This document shows, piece after piece, positions 193 through 25,131 of a DNA stretch of 44,860 bases (within the stretch, counting starts at the first letter, position 1; each line of letters begins with the position of its first letter). The position numbers and the translations under genes are program-made. The notes below the pieces were generated by a model. That model searched no databases. It worked only from the letters and a program-made list of their open reading frames with translations, and had not been told where the DNA came from. Source of the DNA: a virus; IMG/VR virus record IMGVR_UViG_3300042517_000316, positions 1-44,860 of that record; one strand, given 5' to 3'.

Positions 193-216
193 GTTCGGGT
201 GTGTCTGGGGATAACC

Positions 217-225
217 TGTGGATAA
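217..225 (+). promoter_or_regulatory. DnaA box (TGTGGATAA)
   Basis: This is an exact match to the complement of the DnaA-box consensus TTATCCACA. A near match (TGGGGATAA) ends 3 nt upstream. Four more exact boxes in the same orientation lie at 8206-8442. Confidence 0.6.
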
Positions 226-4624: not shown

Positions 4625-4637
4625 GGGGCGCCCCCTG
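4625..4637. repeat. GGGGCGCCCCCTG element, copy 4
   Basis: Identical to copy 3 over 13 bases, 10 bases after tRNA-Asp. Its last two bases overlap the GlxR-type palindrome. Confidence 0.6.
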
Positions 4638-4651
4638 TGATCTATATCACA
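4636..4651. promoter_or_regulatory. GlxR/CRP-type palindrome
   Basis: TGTGATCTATATCACA fits the actinobacterial GlxR consensus TGTGANNTANNTCACA at every fixed position. It lies about 65 bases upstream of the -35 box of the next operon, so host cAMP-receptor control is plausible. Confidence 0.6.
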
Positions 4652-5077: not shown

Positions 5078-5283
5078 TGTGGACTAAGTATAGTTATGTT
5101 TGTACTATATGTGATGCTTTAATTGAGATAACTACTCAGGTGATCCCCGAAGAAAATGCACACTGTACCTGTAGCCGTGGTGCTTGGGTAACTCGTACTG
5201 CCCAGGAGCCAATGGTACAGCCGAATGTGATTAGTTTCACATCAAAGGGAGTTGTCAAAATCAATACGAACCCGTATAATTAA
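5077..5283 (+). CDS. Zinc-ribbon-like protein, CTIC/CTC type (68 aa)
   Basis: CTIC near residue 9 and C-T-C near residue 30 give a short treble-clef or ribbon pattern, with a beta-rich tail. The first 35 residues resemble the 45-residue protein at 13316 (CVEC...CPC with the same ITxVT strand between), so the two are probably paralogues. Start overlaps the previous stop. Function unknown. Confidence 0.6.
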   Translation: MWTKYSYVCTICDALIEITTQVIPEENAHCTCSRGAWVTRTAQEPMVQPNVISFTSKGVVKINTNPYN

Positions 5284-7986: not shown

Positions 7987-8067
7987 TTGACAAACCTTAA
8001 AAACTAGGATATAATGCCCAAACCCTGCATATGATGGTTTGACAGATATGAAGGTTTGCGCTATAAT
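7987..8067 (+). promoter_or_regulatory. Tandem perfect promoters P1 and P2
   Basis: P1 is TTGACA (7987-7992), 17 nt, TATAAT (8010-8015). P2 is TTGACA (8039-8044), 17 nt, TATAAT (8062-8067). Both match the sigma-70 consensus exactly. ATATGA(T/A)GGTTTG occurs three times (about 8029, 8047, 8072), overlapping P2, and could be the binding unit of a regulator. P1 has no ATG at its start site and may feed P2 or make a short RNA. Confidence 0.75.
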
Positions 8068-8073
8068 CCCGAT

Positions 8074-8190
8074 ATGATGGTTTGGAGGTTTGGGGTTTGT
8101 CGCCCAGAAGATTACGACGCCATCTATAAAAGAGCCCTATACTCCACTATCCTCCACTTTGCTCCACTTCTAGACTGTCTAATAATATAA
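8074..8190 (+). CDS. Leaderless micro-protein (38 aa)
   Basis: The ATG lies exactly 6 nt after the P2 TATAAT. The reading frame codes for MMVWRFGVCRPEDYDAIYKR and a hydrophobic end (LHFAPLLDCLII). A consensus promoter driving so small a frame suggests either a regulatory peptide or an RNA-level role. No family recognised. Confidence 0.45.
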   Translation: MMVWRFGVCRPEDYDAIYKRALYSTILHFAPLLDCLII

Positions 8191-8205
8191 TCAGTAAGAT
8201 TAATC

Positions 8206-8259
8206 TGTGGATAACTTGTGGATAACTATGATATTTTTAGCCTATCAGGGTGTGGATAA
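8206..8259 (+). other. DnaA-box cluster, possible replication origin
   Basis: Three exact TGTGGATAA boxes at 8206-8214, 8217-8225 and 8251-8259, all in one orientation; the first two are 11 bp apart, one helical turn. A fourth exact box is at 8434, and AT-rich DNA (AATAATATAATCAGTAAGA) lies next to the first. This is the arrangement expected for DnaA binding at an origin, or for DnaA titration or control of the promoter at 8266. Confidence 0.6.
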
Positions 8260-8277
8260 CTCTGATATAATATTCCA

Positions 8278-8430
8278 ATGCATAAGTTTGAGTCATCTTA
8301 TAGTAGGTTTATAACTGAAGAATTAGACCCATTGGGTGTATCTTGGAAAGATGCTCCAGACTGGTGTGATGATTGTAACTCAAGCCCAGGAGAGAAATGT
8401 CCAGATTGTGGATATACTCATAACTGCTAA
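8278..8430 (+). CDS. Leaderless zinc-ribbon micro-protein (50 aa)
   Basis: TATAAT (8266-8271) plus 6 nt precedes the ATG. The C-terminal half has CDDC and CPDC followed by H and a terminal C, so it probably binds zinc. A DnaA box lies between the -35 and -10 regions of its promoter, and another follows its stop. Function unknown. Confidence 0.6.
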   Translation: MHKFESSYSRFITEELDPLGVSWKDAPDWCDDCNSSPGEKCPDCGYTHNC

Positions 8431-8433
8431 ACC

Positions 8434-8442
8434 TGTGGATAA
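8434..8442 (+). promoter_or_regulatory. DnaA box (TGTGGATAA)
   Basis: Exact box, 7 bases upstream of the -35 hexamer of the next promoter and in the same orientation as the cluster at 8206-8259. Confidence 0.6.
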
Positions 8443-8448
8443 CTATGC

Positions 8449-8477
8449 TTGACAGGCAGACACATCCGTAATATACT
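8449..8477 (+). promoter_or_regulatory. Consensus promoter, leaderless gene
   Basis: TTGACA, 17 nt, TATACT (8472-8477), 6 nt, then ATG at 8484. Confidence 0.8.
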
Positions 8478-8483
8478 TAGAGT

Positions 8484-8792
8484 ATGAATGAATTAGATAG
8501 GATGACTCGTATCGCAGGGTATATGGTTATTACACTGTTAGCAATTGCTATTGGTGGGTTATTTATGCCTAATGATCAGACAAAGGTAATCCCTAAACCA
8601 ATGGTTGAGGAAGTAATCTCATACGAATATTTGCCTGGGTATCTTGATATTATTAATAGAGAGCCTGTCCCAACTCCATCTCCAACCAAAAGCATTTACT
8701 ATCCTAATTCCTATGGTGACGATAGCGATGTAGACTATGACCTATTTGATGATGAAGACGACATTGAATCATATTACGAAGAAGAGAACTAA
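8484..8792 (+). CDS. Single-pass membrane protein with acidic tail (102 aa)
   Basis: Residues 10-28 (IAGYMVITLLAIAIGGLFM) form one membrane helix after a short charged start. A Pro-rich linker (PVPTPSPTKS) and a very acidic C-terminus (DDSDVDYDLFDDEDDIESYY) follow. Its end overlaps the convergent oxygenase gene by 4 bases. Function unknown. Confidence 0.65.
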   Translation: MNELDRMTRIAGYMVITLLAIAIGGLFMPNDQTKVIPKPMVEEVISYEYLPGYLDIINREPVPTPSPTKSIYYPNSYGDDSDVDYDLFDDEDDIESYYEEEN

Positions 8793-17295: not shown

Positions 17296-18339
17296 CTACT
17301 TTGAACTTATTTCTGCTGCTCTTGCTTTTGAGAACTTTAGCATGGCACCTCTTATTGGGGAGTAGCCAAGATCTTCAGCCTTTTTTCCACAAGTATCAAG
17401 CATAAAGTTGAAGAACTTTTTAACTGAACCATTCTTTGAGTTCTTTTCTTTGTATGCTACACCGTAGGTAAATGTAGATATGTTGTAGGATAGTTTGTTA
17501 GGGTTTTTATAGTTAATCTTAACCACACCACTCTTATCTGAAACAAAGTCTCCAAGGAATACTGACGCTGCACTTACTGTTGGTTGGATAAACCTTCCAA
17601 CCTCATTCTCAACAGATACTGTCTTTAGTCCTCTTGCATATGATATCTCATTGTATCCAATAGATCCATTTGTAGTTCCCTGAACCATTGCAACACCATG
17701 AGATCCAGAAGCACTGTTCATGTACTGCTTAGATATATCTCCAGGGAATGCAGTTACAAAGTTTTTATTTCCTGGCTTTGTCCAGATTGATGGAGCAACT
17801 GCATTAAGGTATGAAGTAAAAACCTCTGAAGTTCCAGAGCCATCAATACGGTATACAACTCTAATCTTTGTTGCTGGTATCTTTGGTAGTCTTGTTCCTA
17901 TTAGATTTTCTTTTAGTATTTGTGGATCATTCCACATTGTTATTTGTCCCGCAAAAACTTTAGCAAGTGTATCCCTACTCATCTTAATAGTAACCTTGTA
18001 TCCATCAAGTTTATAGATTACTCCGATTGGCCCTGCGACTAATGGAACATATACAAACTCTTTTGATGGCTTTACTTCTGTCCCAGAGTAAGGAACATCT
18101 GACATAGCAAAGTCTGTTACTCCATTTGAAAACATATTCTTTCCAGCACCTGACCCAGATGCTCCGTACACAACAGAATCTCCTGTTGATTTCATAAATT
18201 CGACCCTGCATCTGTCTATAAAGTTAGCAGCAAATGTGGATCCAGCACCCTGAAGGTTATCGGCATGTGAAGGGGTAATAAAAAAAGCATTAGCAAATAT
18301 GGCTAATGCTACTGGTAAAGCAATGAATTTAAATTTCAT
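17296..18339 (-). CDS. pstS: Phosphate ABC-transporter substrate-binding protein
   Basis: This 347-residue protein starts with a signal peptide (about 1-26, ending PSHA) and then the PstS pattern LQGAGSTFAANF, ASGSGAGKNMF, DFAMSDVPYS and a GSGTSEVF phosphate-binding segment. It would bind phosphate outside the membrane and pass it to the host PstCAB transporter, raising phosphate supply for phage DNA. pstS is known cargo in aquatic phages. TATACT plus 6 nt precedes the ATG at 18339 (leaderless). It is flanked by the two homologous RNAs. No clear Pho box was found. Confidence 0.9.
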   Translation of the reverse strand: MKFKFIALPVALAIFANAFFITPSHADNLQGAGSTFAANFIDRCRVEFMKSTGDSVVYGASGSGAGKNMFSNGVTDFAMSDVPYSGTEVKPSKEFVYVPLVAGPIGVIYKLDGYKVTIKMSRDTLAKVFAGQITMWNDPQILKENLIGTRLPKIPATKIRVVYRIDGSGTSEVFTSYLNAVAPSIWTKPGNKNFVTAFPGDISKQYMNSASGSHGVAMVQGTTNGSIGYNEISYARGLKTVSVENEVGRFIQPTVSAASVFLGDFVSDKSGVVKINYKNPNKLSYNISTFTYGVAYKEKNSKNGSVKKFFNFMLDTCGKKAEDLGYSPIRGAMLKFSKARAAEISSK

Positions 18340-18417
18340 ACTTATAGTATATACGACAAGACTATAAAGTTTTGTTATAAATGGCAAACAAACAAAGAAC
18401 TTTAGATGAATAATGGA

Positions 18418-23102: not shown

Positions 23103-23387
23103 TTAGACCCAATGTTTAATTATAGCACTTACAGCAAGAGTTGTCCACAGGATATTAAACCAAATAATTGTAGGCAAAGTCTTTACTGTCGATGACCAAA
23201 TCAATGCAAGGCTTGATACCAATGCAAAGATGTATAGCCACCACCATTGCTTACCGAATAGTAAGCCTGGAAATATAATAGATATTTTTGTCATAAAAGC
23301 AAAGAACTCAACAGTATTTGGCTTGTTCCAATACTCTTTGTGTCTCATTGTCTTTAGAGCATTAATCCACTCTGTTCTAAATTTCAT
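23103..23387 (-). CDS. Membrane protein (94 aa)
   Basis: Start at the ATG at 23387 after TGGAGGGATTAAA, overlapping the halogenase stop by ATGA. Three hydrophobic segments (FAFMTKISIIFPGLLF, WWLYIFALVSSLALIW, IIWFNILWTTLAVSAII). Coupled to the halogenase; no family recognised. Confidence 0.65.
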   Translation of the reverse strand: MKFRTEWINALKTMRHKEYWNKPNTVEFFAFMTKISIIFPGLLFGKQWWWLYIFALVSSLALIWSSTVKTLPTIIWFNILWTTLAVSAIIKHWV

Positions 23388-24928
23388 TTTAATCCCTCCA
23401 AAAATTGCCTGTGATCTACACATTCCGACACCTTGTAGTCTTGATATTTCTTGTAATAGTCATACATGTCAGCACCCTTTTTATAGTCTGCAGAATTTTC
23501 TATATATGCTTTTGCAACATCTTTATTAATTGTGTCATGTGCAGACCCTACAAAGGTCCAACTATTTGATGTCCAGTGTTCTCCAGAGTCAGATTTGCTT
23601 GGAAGTCTGACCTTCCATTTGTTAATTTTTTCTTGCAGATCTTTTGGTGCATTTTCATATGAAAATTTGTTCCAAAATTCTGTATCATTTCTTAAAGTCA
23701 TATAGTGAAAATATATAAATTCAGAAATACTATTGTTCATACTAACTATGTTCTTGTTAAACTCTTGTCTTATATCTTTTGAATTTTTAAATAGCCATAG
23801 CGGATTTTCGAATATTTGTGTTAACCCCACAATGCTAACCCAAATTGATGTTGCCTCTAGTGGCTCAACAAAGTTTGCTGCAAGGCCTAATGCCACACAG
23901 TTATTAATCCATGGCTCTTCGTAACATCCAGCACTAAATTTAAAACCACCCTTGTCCTTTCTTGGATATGTTGGCTCATACCCCAAAAACTCTTCTATCT
24001 CTTTCACTGCTTCTTCTTCAGAAATAAGAGATGAGTCGTAGACATAGCCACAACCAAACCTGTTCTGTAGTGGGATCTTCCACATCCACCCGTATTTCAT
24101 AGCAATTGCCTCTGTGTAGGATGGAATTTTATCAGTCATCTCAACAAAAAATGGAACAGCAGAGTCTACTGGAAGAAAATCTTTATAACTTTTCCATTTA
24201 GCGTCATATACTTTGCCAATGATTAGCCTGTGAAATCCGCTACAATCAAAAACAAAATCACACACAATCTTTTCATCATTTTCTAAAGTCAAACCATTTA
24301 CATAGTTATCTTTATCTAGTGAGACATTTTTTATTGTGCCATCAACTACTTTAATTCCTCTTTCTTTTCCTATTTCTTTTAGTCTATTTGCTAGTTTGGT
24401 AGCATTAAAATGTATAGAAATATTTCCTATTTTTTTATAATCATCTATAGGATCTTTTTTAGATACAAATCCGAAATCTCTCTTGTTTGCTTCCAAAGTA
24501 AAGGGGACTTTATTCGCTTCTGAAATTTTTTCCATGAAGTCTATCTTCTTTACGCTATCGTTTAGAGCAATACTTGCTGCCATAAGAGGGCTATTAGAAA
24601 GATACCTGTCGTATACAGCATCAAAGCCTAAAGACTTGTCTGTTGTTGAAAAACCATGGTAATAAAACTCTCCATCATTGTTCCAATTTGTAAACTTGAT
24701 TCCATTTTTAATGGTTGCATCACAATTTTTTATTAGGTCAGACAAAGGAATATTTAAATGGTCAAAGAAATCTGCAAGGTATGGGGTAGATCCTTCTCCT
24801 GCCCCCAAGATTCCTATTTCTGTTGATTCTATAACAGTTATGTTTATGTCTGGGTATGACCTTTGGGCTTTAAGTGCAGTAAGCCATCCAGCACTTCCGC
24901 CACCAACAACAACTACATTCTTTGCCAT
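23384..24928 (-). CDS. Flavin-dependent tryptophan-type halogenase (514 aa)
   Basis: GGGSAGW (9-15) binds FAD. GEGSTPYL (44-51) stands where PrnA-type enzymes have GEATIP. ATIKNGIKFTNW (71-82) carries the probable catalytic Lys. WMWKIP (281-286) is the WxWxIP signature that separates halogenases from monooxygenases. Length fits the family (about 510-540). The enzyme chlorinates or brominates indoles, phenols or pyrroles through hypohalous acid. Start at 24928 after GGGGAAGAAAGTA, sharing a base with the DUF2061 stop. It needs FADH2 from a host reductase, as none is encoded nearby. Confidence 0.9.
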   Translation of the reverse strand: MAKNVVVVGGGSAGWLTALKAQRSYPDINITVIESTEIGILGAGEGSTPYLADFFDHLNIPLSDLIKNCDATIKNGIKFTNWNNDGEFYYHGFSTTDKSLGFDAVYDRYLSNSPLMAASIALNDSVKKIDFMEKISEANKVPFTLEANKRDFGFVSKKDPIDDYKKIGNISIHFNATKLANRLKEIGKERGIKVVDGTIKNVSLDKDNYVNGLTLENDEKIVCDFVFDCSGFHRLIIGKVYDAKWKSYKDFLPVDSAVPFFVEMTDKIPSYTEAIAMKYGWMWKIPLQNRFGCGYVYDSSLISEEEAVKEIEEFLGYEPTYPRKDKGGFKFSAGCYEEPWINNCVALGLAANFVEPLEATSIWVSIVGLTQIFENPLWLFKNSKDIRQEFNKNIVSMNNSISEFIYFHYMTLRNDTEFWNKFSYENAPKDLQEKINKWKVRLPSKSDSGEHWTSNSWTFVGSAHDTINKDVAKAYIENSADYKKGADMYDYYKKYQDYKVSECVDHRQFLEGLK

Positions 24929-25131
24929 TACTTTCTTCCCCATTGAATATAATTCCATCCACGCTCATGTGCGTAGTAAATAAATATTTTAACTACCGTT
25001 TCCCAAAACGCAATCGTTACGGAAAGAGCAGCATTGTTTGTTATCACATAGGCAACGGCAACAGATGAAAGAGTTCCCCATATGCGATAACTTAATGCCT
25101 TAACAAATGACCTTGCCTTGGTTACTGTCAT
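24928..25131 (-). CDS. DUF2061 membrane protein, copy 1 (67 aa)
   Basis: The pattern KARSFVKALSYRIWGTLSSV, then YYAHERGWNYIQWG matches DUF2061: a basic KSxxWR-type start, two membrane helices and an HExxW end. Start at 25131 because of the ATGA overlap with the next copy. Function unknown. Confidence 0.75.
   Translation of the reverse strand: MTVTKARSFVKALSYRIWGTLSSVAVAYVITNNAALSVTIAFWETVVKIFIYYAHERGWNYIQWGRK

Follow-up and report, generated by a model that had tools for sequence, protein, structure and literature searches.

Does a cluster of DnaA boxes on a phage genome mark the place where phage DNA replication begins, with the host initiator DnaA acting upon it? The question is raised by positions 8206–8442 of the window, which here means the whole stretch of DNA analysed, a virus record of 44,860 bases. 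The DnaE and DUF932 proteins of the window are 55% and 53% identical, respectively, to those of Streptomyces phages of the Stanwilliamsviridae; kinship with this family is used here in the sense of homologous DnaE and DUF932. The host is very probably an actinobacterium, because WhiB is present in eight of nine larger relatives and, among the control genomes, matched Corynebacterium only. Freshwater Actinomycetota are weakly suggested as the host by the PstS of the window, which shows 35% identity to a freshwater Actinomycetota genome; a DUF932 search of genome contigs for the same purpose gave no match. This PstS-like phosphate-binding protein is encoded at 17296–18387, and a tryptophan halogenase is encoded at 23384–24958.

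DnaA boxes in the window and its relatives

Five perfect TGTGGATAA boxes are found in the window (217–225, 8206–8214, 8217–8225, 8251–8259 and 8434–8442), all on the plus strand and between likely genes. This number was reached in none of 100 dinucleotide shuffles of the window (mean 0.66), placing perfect copies of the 9-mer TTATCCACA far above chance expectation. A sequence-only reading had described four same-strand boxes within 237 bp and a fifth at 217, two of them one helical turn apart; the positions are as claimed, and the boxes at 8206 and 8217 are indeed spaced by 11 bp, forming a core double box (8206–8225, plus strand) with a 2-bp gap. The box at 217 does not stand alone: a partner with one mismatch, TGGGGATAA, occupies 206–214, again with a 2-bp gap, and the site is therefore also a double box (206–225, plus strand). 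The third box (8251–8259, plus strand) lies 34 bp past the second.

Conservation in related phages had been proposed as a check, and was confirmed across a sample of 80 related viral loci. The exact 9-mer occurs 421 times in these loci compared to 15 times for its reversal, and one-base variants are far rarer; as the 80 loci share kinship, these box counts, and the spacing counts that follow, are not independent. CC is preferred before the box and CT after it. Boxes on the same strand are spaced by 11 bp (n=31) or 12 bp (n=33), once by 13 bp, and otherwise mostly by 21, 33–34, 44–45, 55 or 66 bp, giving a period of about 11 bp; opposite-strand pairs number only two. A partner with at most two mismatches is found 11 or 12 bp away for 194 of 342 boxes, in the arrangement of a double box with both members in the same orientation and a gap of 2 or 3 bp. 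In E. coli, the gap favoured by DnaA in vivo is likewise 2 or 3 bp, and binding is strongly reduced by an additional base pair (PMC11317965).

Enrichment of this 9-mer is also seen in dnaA loci from the family of the candidate host, itself only weakly assigned: 25 such loci hold 79 copies, compared to one reversed. The box is usually followed there by C and then T, and tandem spacings are 10–12, such that both the box and its tandem spacing recur in the dnaA region of this putative host. Taken together, spacing, flanks and conservation make it well supported that the boxes of the window are host-type DnaA boxes.

Individual records carry from one to 13 boxes. Double boxes recur upstream of DUF932 and at other sites, accounting for 96 of 180 boxes away from the core, and a double box alone is therefore no marker of an origin. 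Exact double boxes, TGTGGATAACNTGTGGATAAC, were also observed in at least 120 viral stretches (L086–L205); among the stretches listed, 114 lack the core described below, and none contains an open reading frame similar to five actinobacterial DnaA proteins.

Comparable arrangements are found in cultured Streptomyces phages. In Annadreamy, Kenrey, Faust, Ankus, Moab, Sham and Byblos, the two members of a double box are separated by 3 bp and a third box follows after about 250 bp; in BillNye, Muntaha, TunaTartare and Karp the arrangement is inverted, and a third box is present. Arrangements in members of Samistivirus are mostly inverted, Paradiddles having a single perfect box. In most of these records no annotated gene covers the boxes, and the gene-free gap which holds them is about 1.4 kb in Annadreamy and Muntaha. 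No clear trio run was seen in the Streptomyces phages when inspected by eye. Separately, a non-coding sequence of 133 bp, located between boxes two and three of Annadreamy (L212:13913–14045), matches the 18-kb Deltatectivirus phages Forthebois and RickRoss (L271:1501–1633), with fold z-scores of -2.5 in Annadreamy and -0.7 in Forthebois.

The conserved core as a candidate origin

The core double box adjoins a conserved non-coding block which runs from GATTACGACGCC to the first box (8110–8205, plus strand). Over the 80 bp before the first box, each column holds about 1.0–1.65 bits of information; the value falls to 0.84 over the following ten and to 0.44 past 90 bp. Among 53 distinct homologous cores, 50 carry at least two perfect boxes after the AT-rich block, and one more carries a perfect box together with one that has a single mismatch. 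In L051 and L084 the AT-rich core is retained with no DnaA box after it, suggesting that these two lineages either have no strict need of DnaA boxes or start replication in another way.

Within the block, an AT-rich run resembling DnaA-trios is found on the minus strand (8180–8203). It consists of eight NTN triplets in succession, read in the direction leading away from the box, includes the nearly invariant ATCAGTAA (8190–8197), and lies on the side of the box on which trios lie in oriC. AT-rich DNA yields such runs easily, and the cores have a common ancestry; it is with this in mind that the shared register of the middle-T triplets in 45 of 46 cores, and the frequency of T at the middle position (0.86, compared to 0.32 elsewhere), are to be read. 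Compared with the GAT consensus, the outer bases vary across cores while the middle base is conserved. Origins with a basal origin unwinding system (BUS) are recognised by tandem boxes and, 0–16 bp away, at least three NAN triplets in a row (PMC8287927), and the core contains both.

Two kinds of repeat accompany the block. Three CTCCAC repeats at an exact spacing of 10 bp begin at 8142, 8152 and 8162 (8142–8171, plus strand), and an iteron-like array of GGTTTG direct repeats begins at 8036, 8053, 8079, 8087 and 8094 (8036–8099, plus strand). The GGTTTG array is found beside the core in relatives too, and the core site is where GGTTTG repeats are densest in each of the three near-complete genomes. 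The 60-bp stretch at 8208 belongs to the least stable 0.3% of the window in duplex stability. Two sigma-70-like promoters with 12 of 12 matches (7987–8015 and 8039–8067, plus strand) read into the non-coding core. Searching Rfam with the core and with the gap of the Streptomyces phages gave no match, and the core DNA found nothing among cultured phages beyond short, weak Proteus and Escherichia matches.

A DnaB-type helicase domain (DnaB_C) is encoded by all ten relatives searched, and the annotation of BillNye lists a helicase, a primase, a single-strand binding protein and DnaE. DnaA domain IV was not detected in the 18 phage records searched, and the examined parts of the relatives' records contain no initiator annotation.

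The earlier proposal that host DnaA recruits replication here thus finds strong circumstantial support in the unwinding-module layout, the repeat array, the low stability, the conservation, and the possession of a helicase and polymerase by phages in which DnaA was not found. The predicted GC-skew shift at 8.2 kb is absent, the extremum coinciding with the coding-strand switch at about 15 kb; because skew follows the coding strand it is a weak test for an origin, and it was set aside as an uninformative marker. On the strength of the double boxes, the trio-like strand, the low stability and the repeats, the segment at 8.0–8.26 kb is considered, at a probability of roughly 60%, a candidate phage replication origin which uses host DnaA, the remaining boxes sitting at leaderless promoters. 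The most likely reason for the conservation of a fixed box layout in a large family of actinobacterial phages is that phage copying starts there via host DnaA.

Initiation at such an origin may proceed as follows. Host DnaA would bind the tandem double box at 8206/8217, and the DnaA oligomer would extend onto the adjacent AT-rich trio-like strand (8180–8203) and melt it. The melted strand would then allow loading of the phage-encoded DnaB-type helicase, primase and DnaE, while the GGTTTG and CTCCAC repeats may bind an accessory factor, perhaps also encoded by the phage. With boxes 217, 8251 and 8434 lying in or before leaderless promoters, the genes concerned would respond to DnaA.

Boxes at leaderless promoters

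The sequence-only reading placed the 8251 box between the -35 and -10 regions of a leaderless promoter. The box does lie just 5' of an extended -10, TGATATAAT (8263–8271), and a start codon occupies the position where +1 is expected (8278); the -35 is not recognisable (TATCAG, 1/6), and the box therefore occupies the spacer of a promoter lacking a -35. The leaderless ORF which follows (8278–8430, plus strand) encodes 50 residues with two CxxC pairs (MHKFESSY...CPDCGYTHNC). The fourth box (8434–8442, plus strand) was correctly placed immediately before the -35 of the next, near-perfect promoter, in which TTGACA at 8449 is separated by 17 bp from TATACT at 8472–8477; a start codon at 8484, again where +1 would fall, opens a leaderless ORF of 102 residues (promoter and ORF 8449–8792, ORF 8484–8792, plus strand). 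The segment 8251–8433 of the window is missing from the related locus L007. For this reason, box-promoter-gene cassettes, of which the 50-residue ORF is part, appear to be exchanged between phages, at the box.

The double box at 206–225 is likewise upstream of a leaderless promoter. A CRP-like palindrome, TGTGATTTTAATCACA (313–328, strand unassigned), is followed by TTGACA (339–344), TAAGAT (363–368) and an ATG at 375. Perfect CRP-like palindromes, TGTGAN6TCACA, number 420 in the related loci and the window, compared to one in total for spacers of 5, 7 and 8; those of the window are at 313–328, 4636–4651 and 5226–5241, and those of the relatives are in loci L006–L085. Ninety of 286 distinct palindromes are no further than 150 bp from a DnaA box, a zone which makes up 6% of the sequence. 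None was found in the examined parts of the Streptomyces phage records. A host-matched regulon was considered for these palindromes and rejected, as the candidate host family shows no corresponding enrichment, with a palindrome in only one of 26 genomes, although the control count was low too.

Judged by their positions, the boxes at 217, 8251 and 8434 are likely to act in transcription as well, alongside the candidate origin. A broader proposal holds that the large actinobacterial phages of a widespread family supply a helicase and polymerase of their own yet leave initiation to the host. Host DnaA would open a phage origin of the BUS type and, via double boxes combined with CRP-like sites, would also set the timing of early leaderless promoters, coupling infection to the replication and nutrient state of the host; this proposal is tentative and somewhat doubtful.

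Alternative explanations and known systems

The boxes could be transcriptional operators only, through which host DnaA turns early leaderless promoters up or down while replication starts elsewhere. The promoters at 217, 8251 and 8434 fit this account, as do the recurrent double boxes, which precede DUF932 among other sites and in many cases lie close to CRP-like palindromes, and the exchange of box-promoter-gene cassettes between phages. It is nevertheless judged unlikely, since promoters alone need no conserved non-coding block of about 95 bp, no two kinds of repeat and no very low duplex stability such as adjoin the core pair. Titration of DnaA had been offered as the other reading of the cluster; the boxes would then sequester host DnaA and shut down initiation on the host chromosome. 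The boxes are perfect, and many phage copies per cell would multiply them, but the small number of boxes per record argues against titration, which requires no strict position, spacing or flanking core; it leaves the layout poorly explained and is very unlikely as the main role.

A further account holds that another protein, encoded by host or phage, reads the extended CCTGTGGATAACT, the match to a DnaA box being incidental. Streptomyces oriC favours TTGTCCACA, yet Streptomyces phages use the same TGTGGATAA box as the window, and the flank preference spans about 13 bp. The similar following bases and tandem spacing in the candidate-host dnaA loci, and the agreement of the 2–3 bp gap with DnaA (PMC11317965), speak against such a protein and leave it with little probability. 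Least probable is a packaging or terminal-repeat signal: the inverted boxes of Jay2Jay (122001–122031; L211:12002–12032) are no more than 100 bp from where the long terminal repeat begins, but those of BillNye and Annadreamy are 5 to 6 kb from it, the repeats of all three phages being deduced from repeated gene coordinates.

Literature searches found no paper on DnaA boxes in actinophage origins and no account of how replication starts in large DnaE-encoding actinophages. The presence of the conserved candidate origin in cultured Streptomyces phages makes an origin using host DnaA directly testable. If it is true, a phage with its own replisome would rely on the host initiator, and host DnaA would be a control point of infection in freshwater actinobacteria.

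The core shares with the BUS of bacterial oriC its tandem boxes in fixed orientation, short spacer, in-register triplets with a conserved middle base and low duplex stability (PMC8287927, PMC6669920); it differs in being on a phage, in triplets which depart from the GAT consensus, and in that unwinding is here only predicted. Like the double box of the E. coli DnaA regulon (PMC11317965), it has a pair of equally oriented boxes separated by 2 or 3 bp, although the phage boxes are putative sites on phage DNA, often with more boxes at helical multiples. DnaA boxes, an AT-rich region and direct repeats also stand side by side in iteron plasmid origins such as those of RK2 or P1 (PMC4980987), whereas the GGTTTG repeats of the phage are short and irregularly spaced, and the record parts examined show no Rep-type initiator. 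In phage lambda, host DnaA sites lie near the phage origin and promoters, and DnaA-dependent transcriptional activation occurs at the origin region (PMC3985674); lambda, however, has its own initiator O which binds iterons, whereas the boxes here are perfect, double and part of the core. The Stanwilliamsviridae phages of Streptomyces share paired boxes and a third box in a gene-free gap, but their third box is about 190–255 bp away and their DNA does not match the core of the window.
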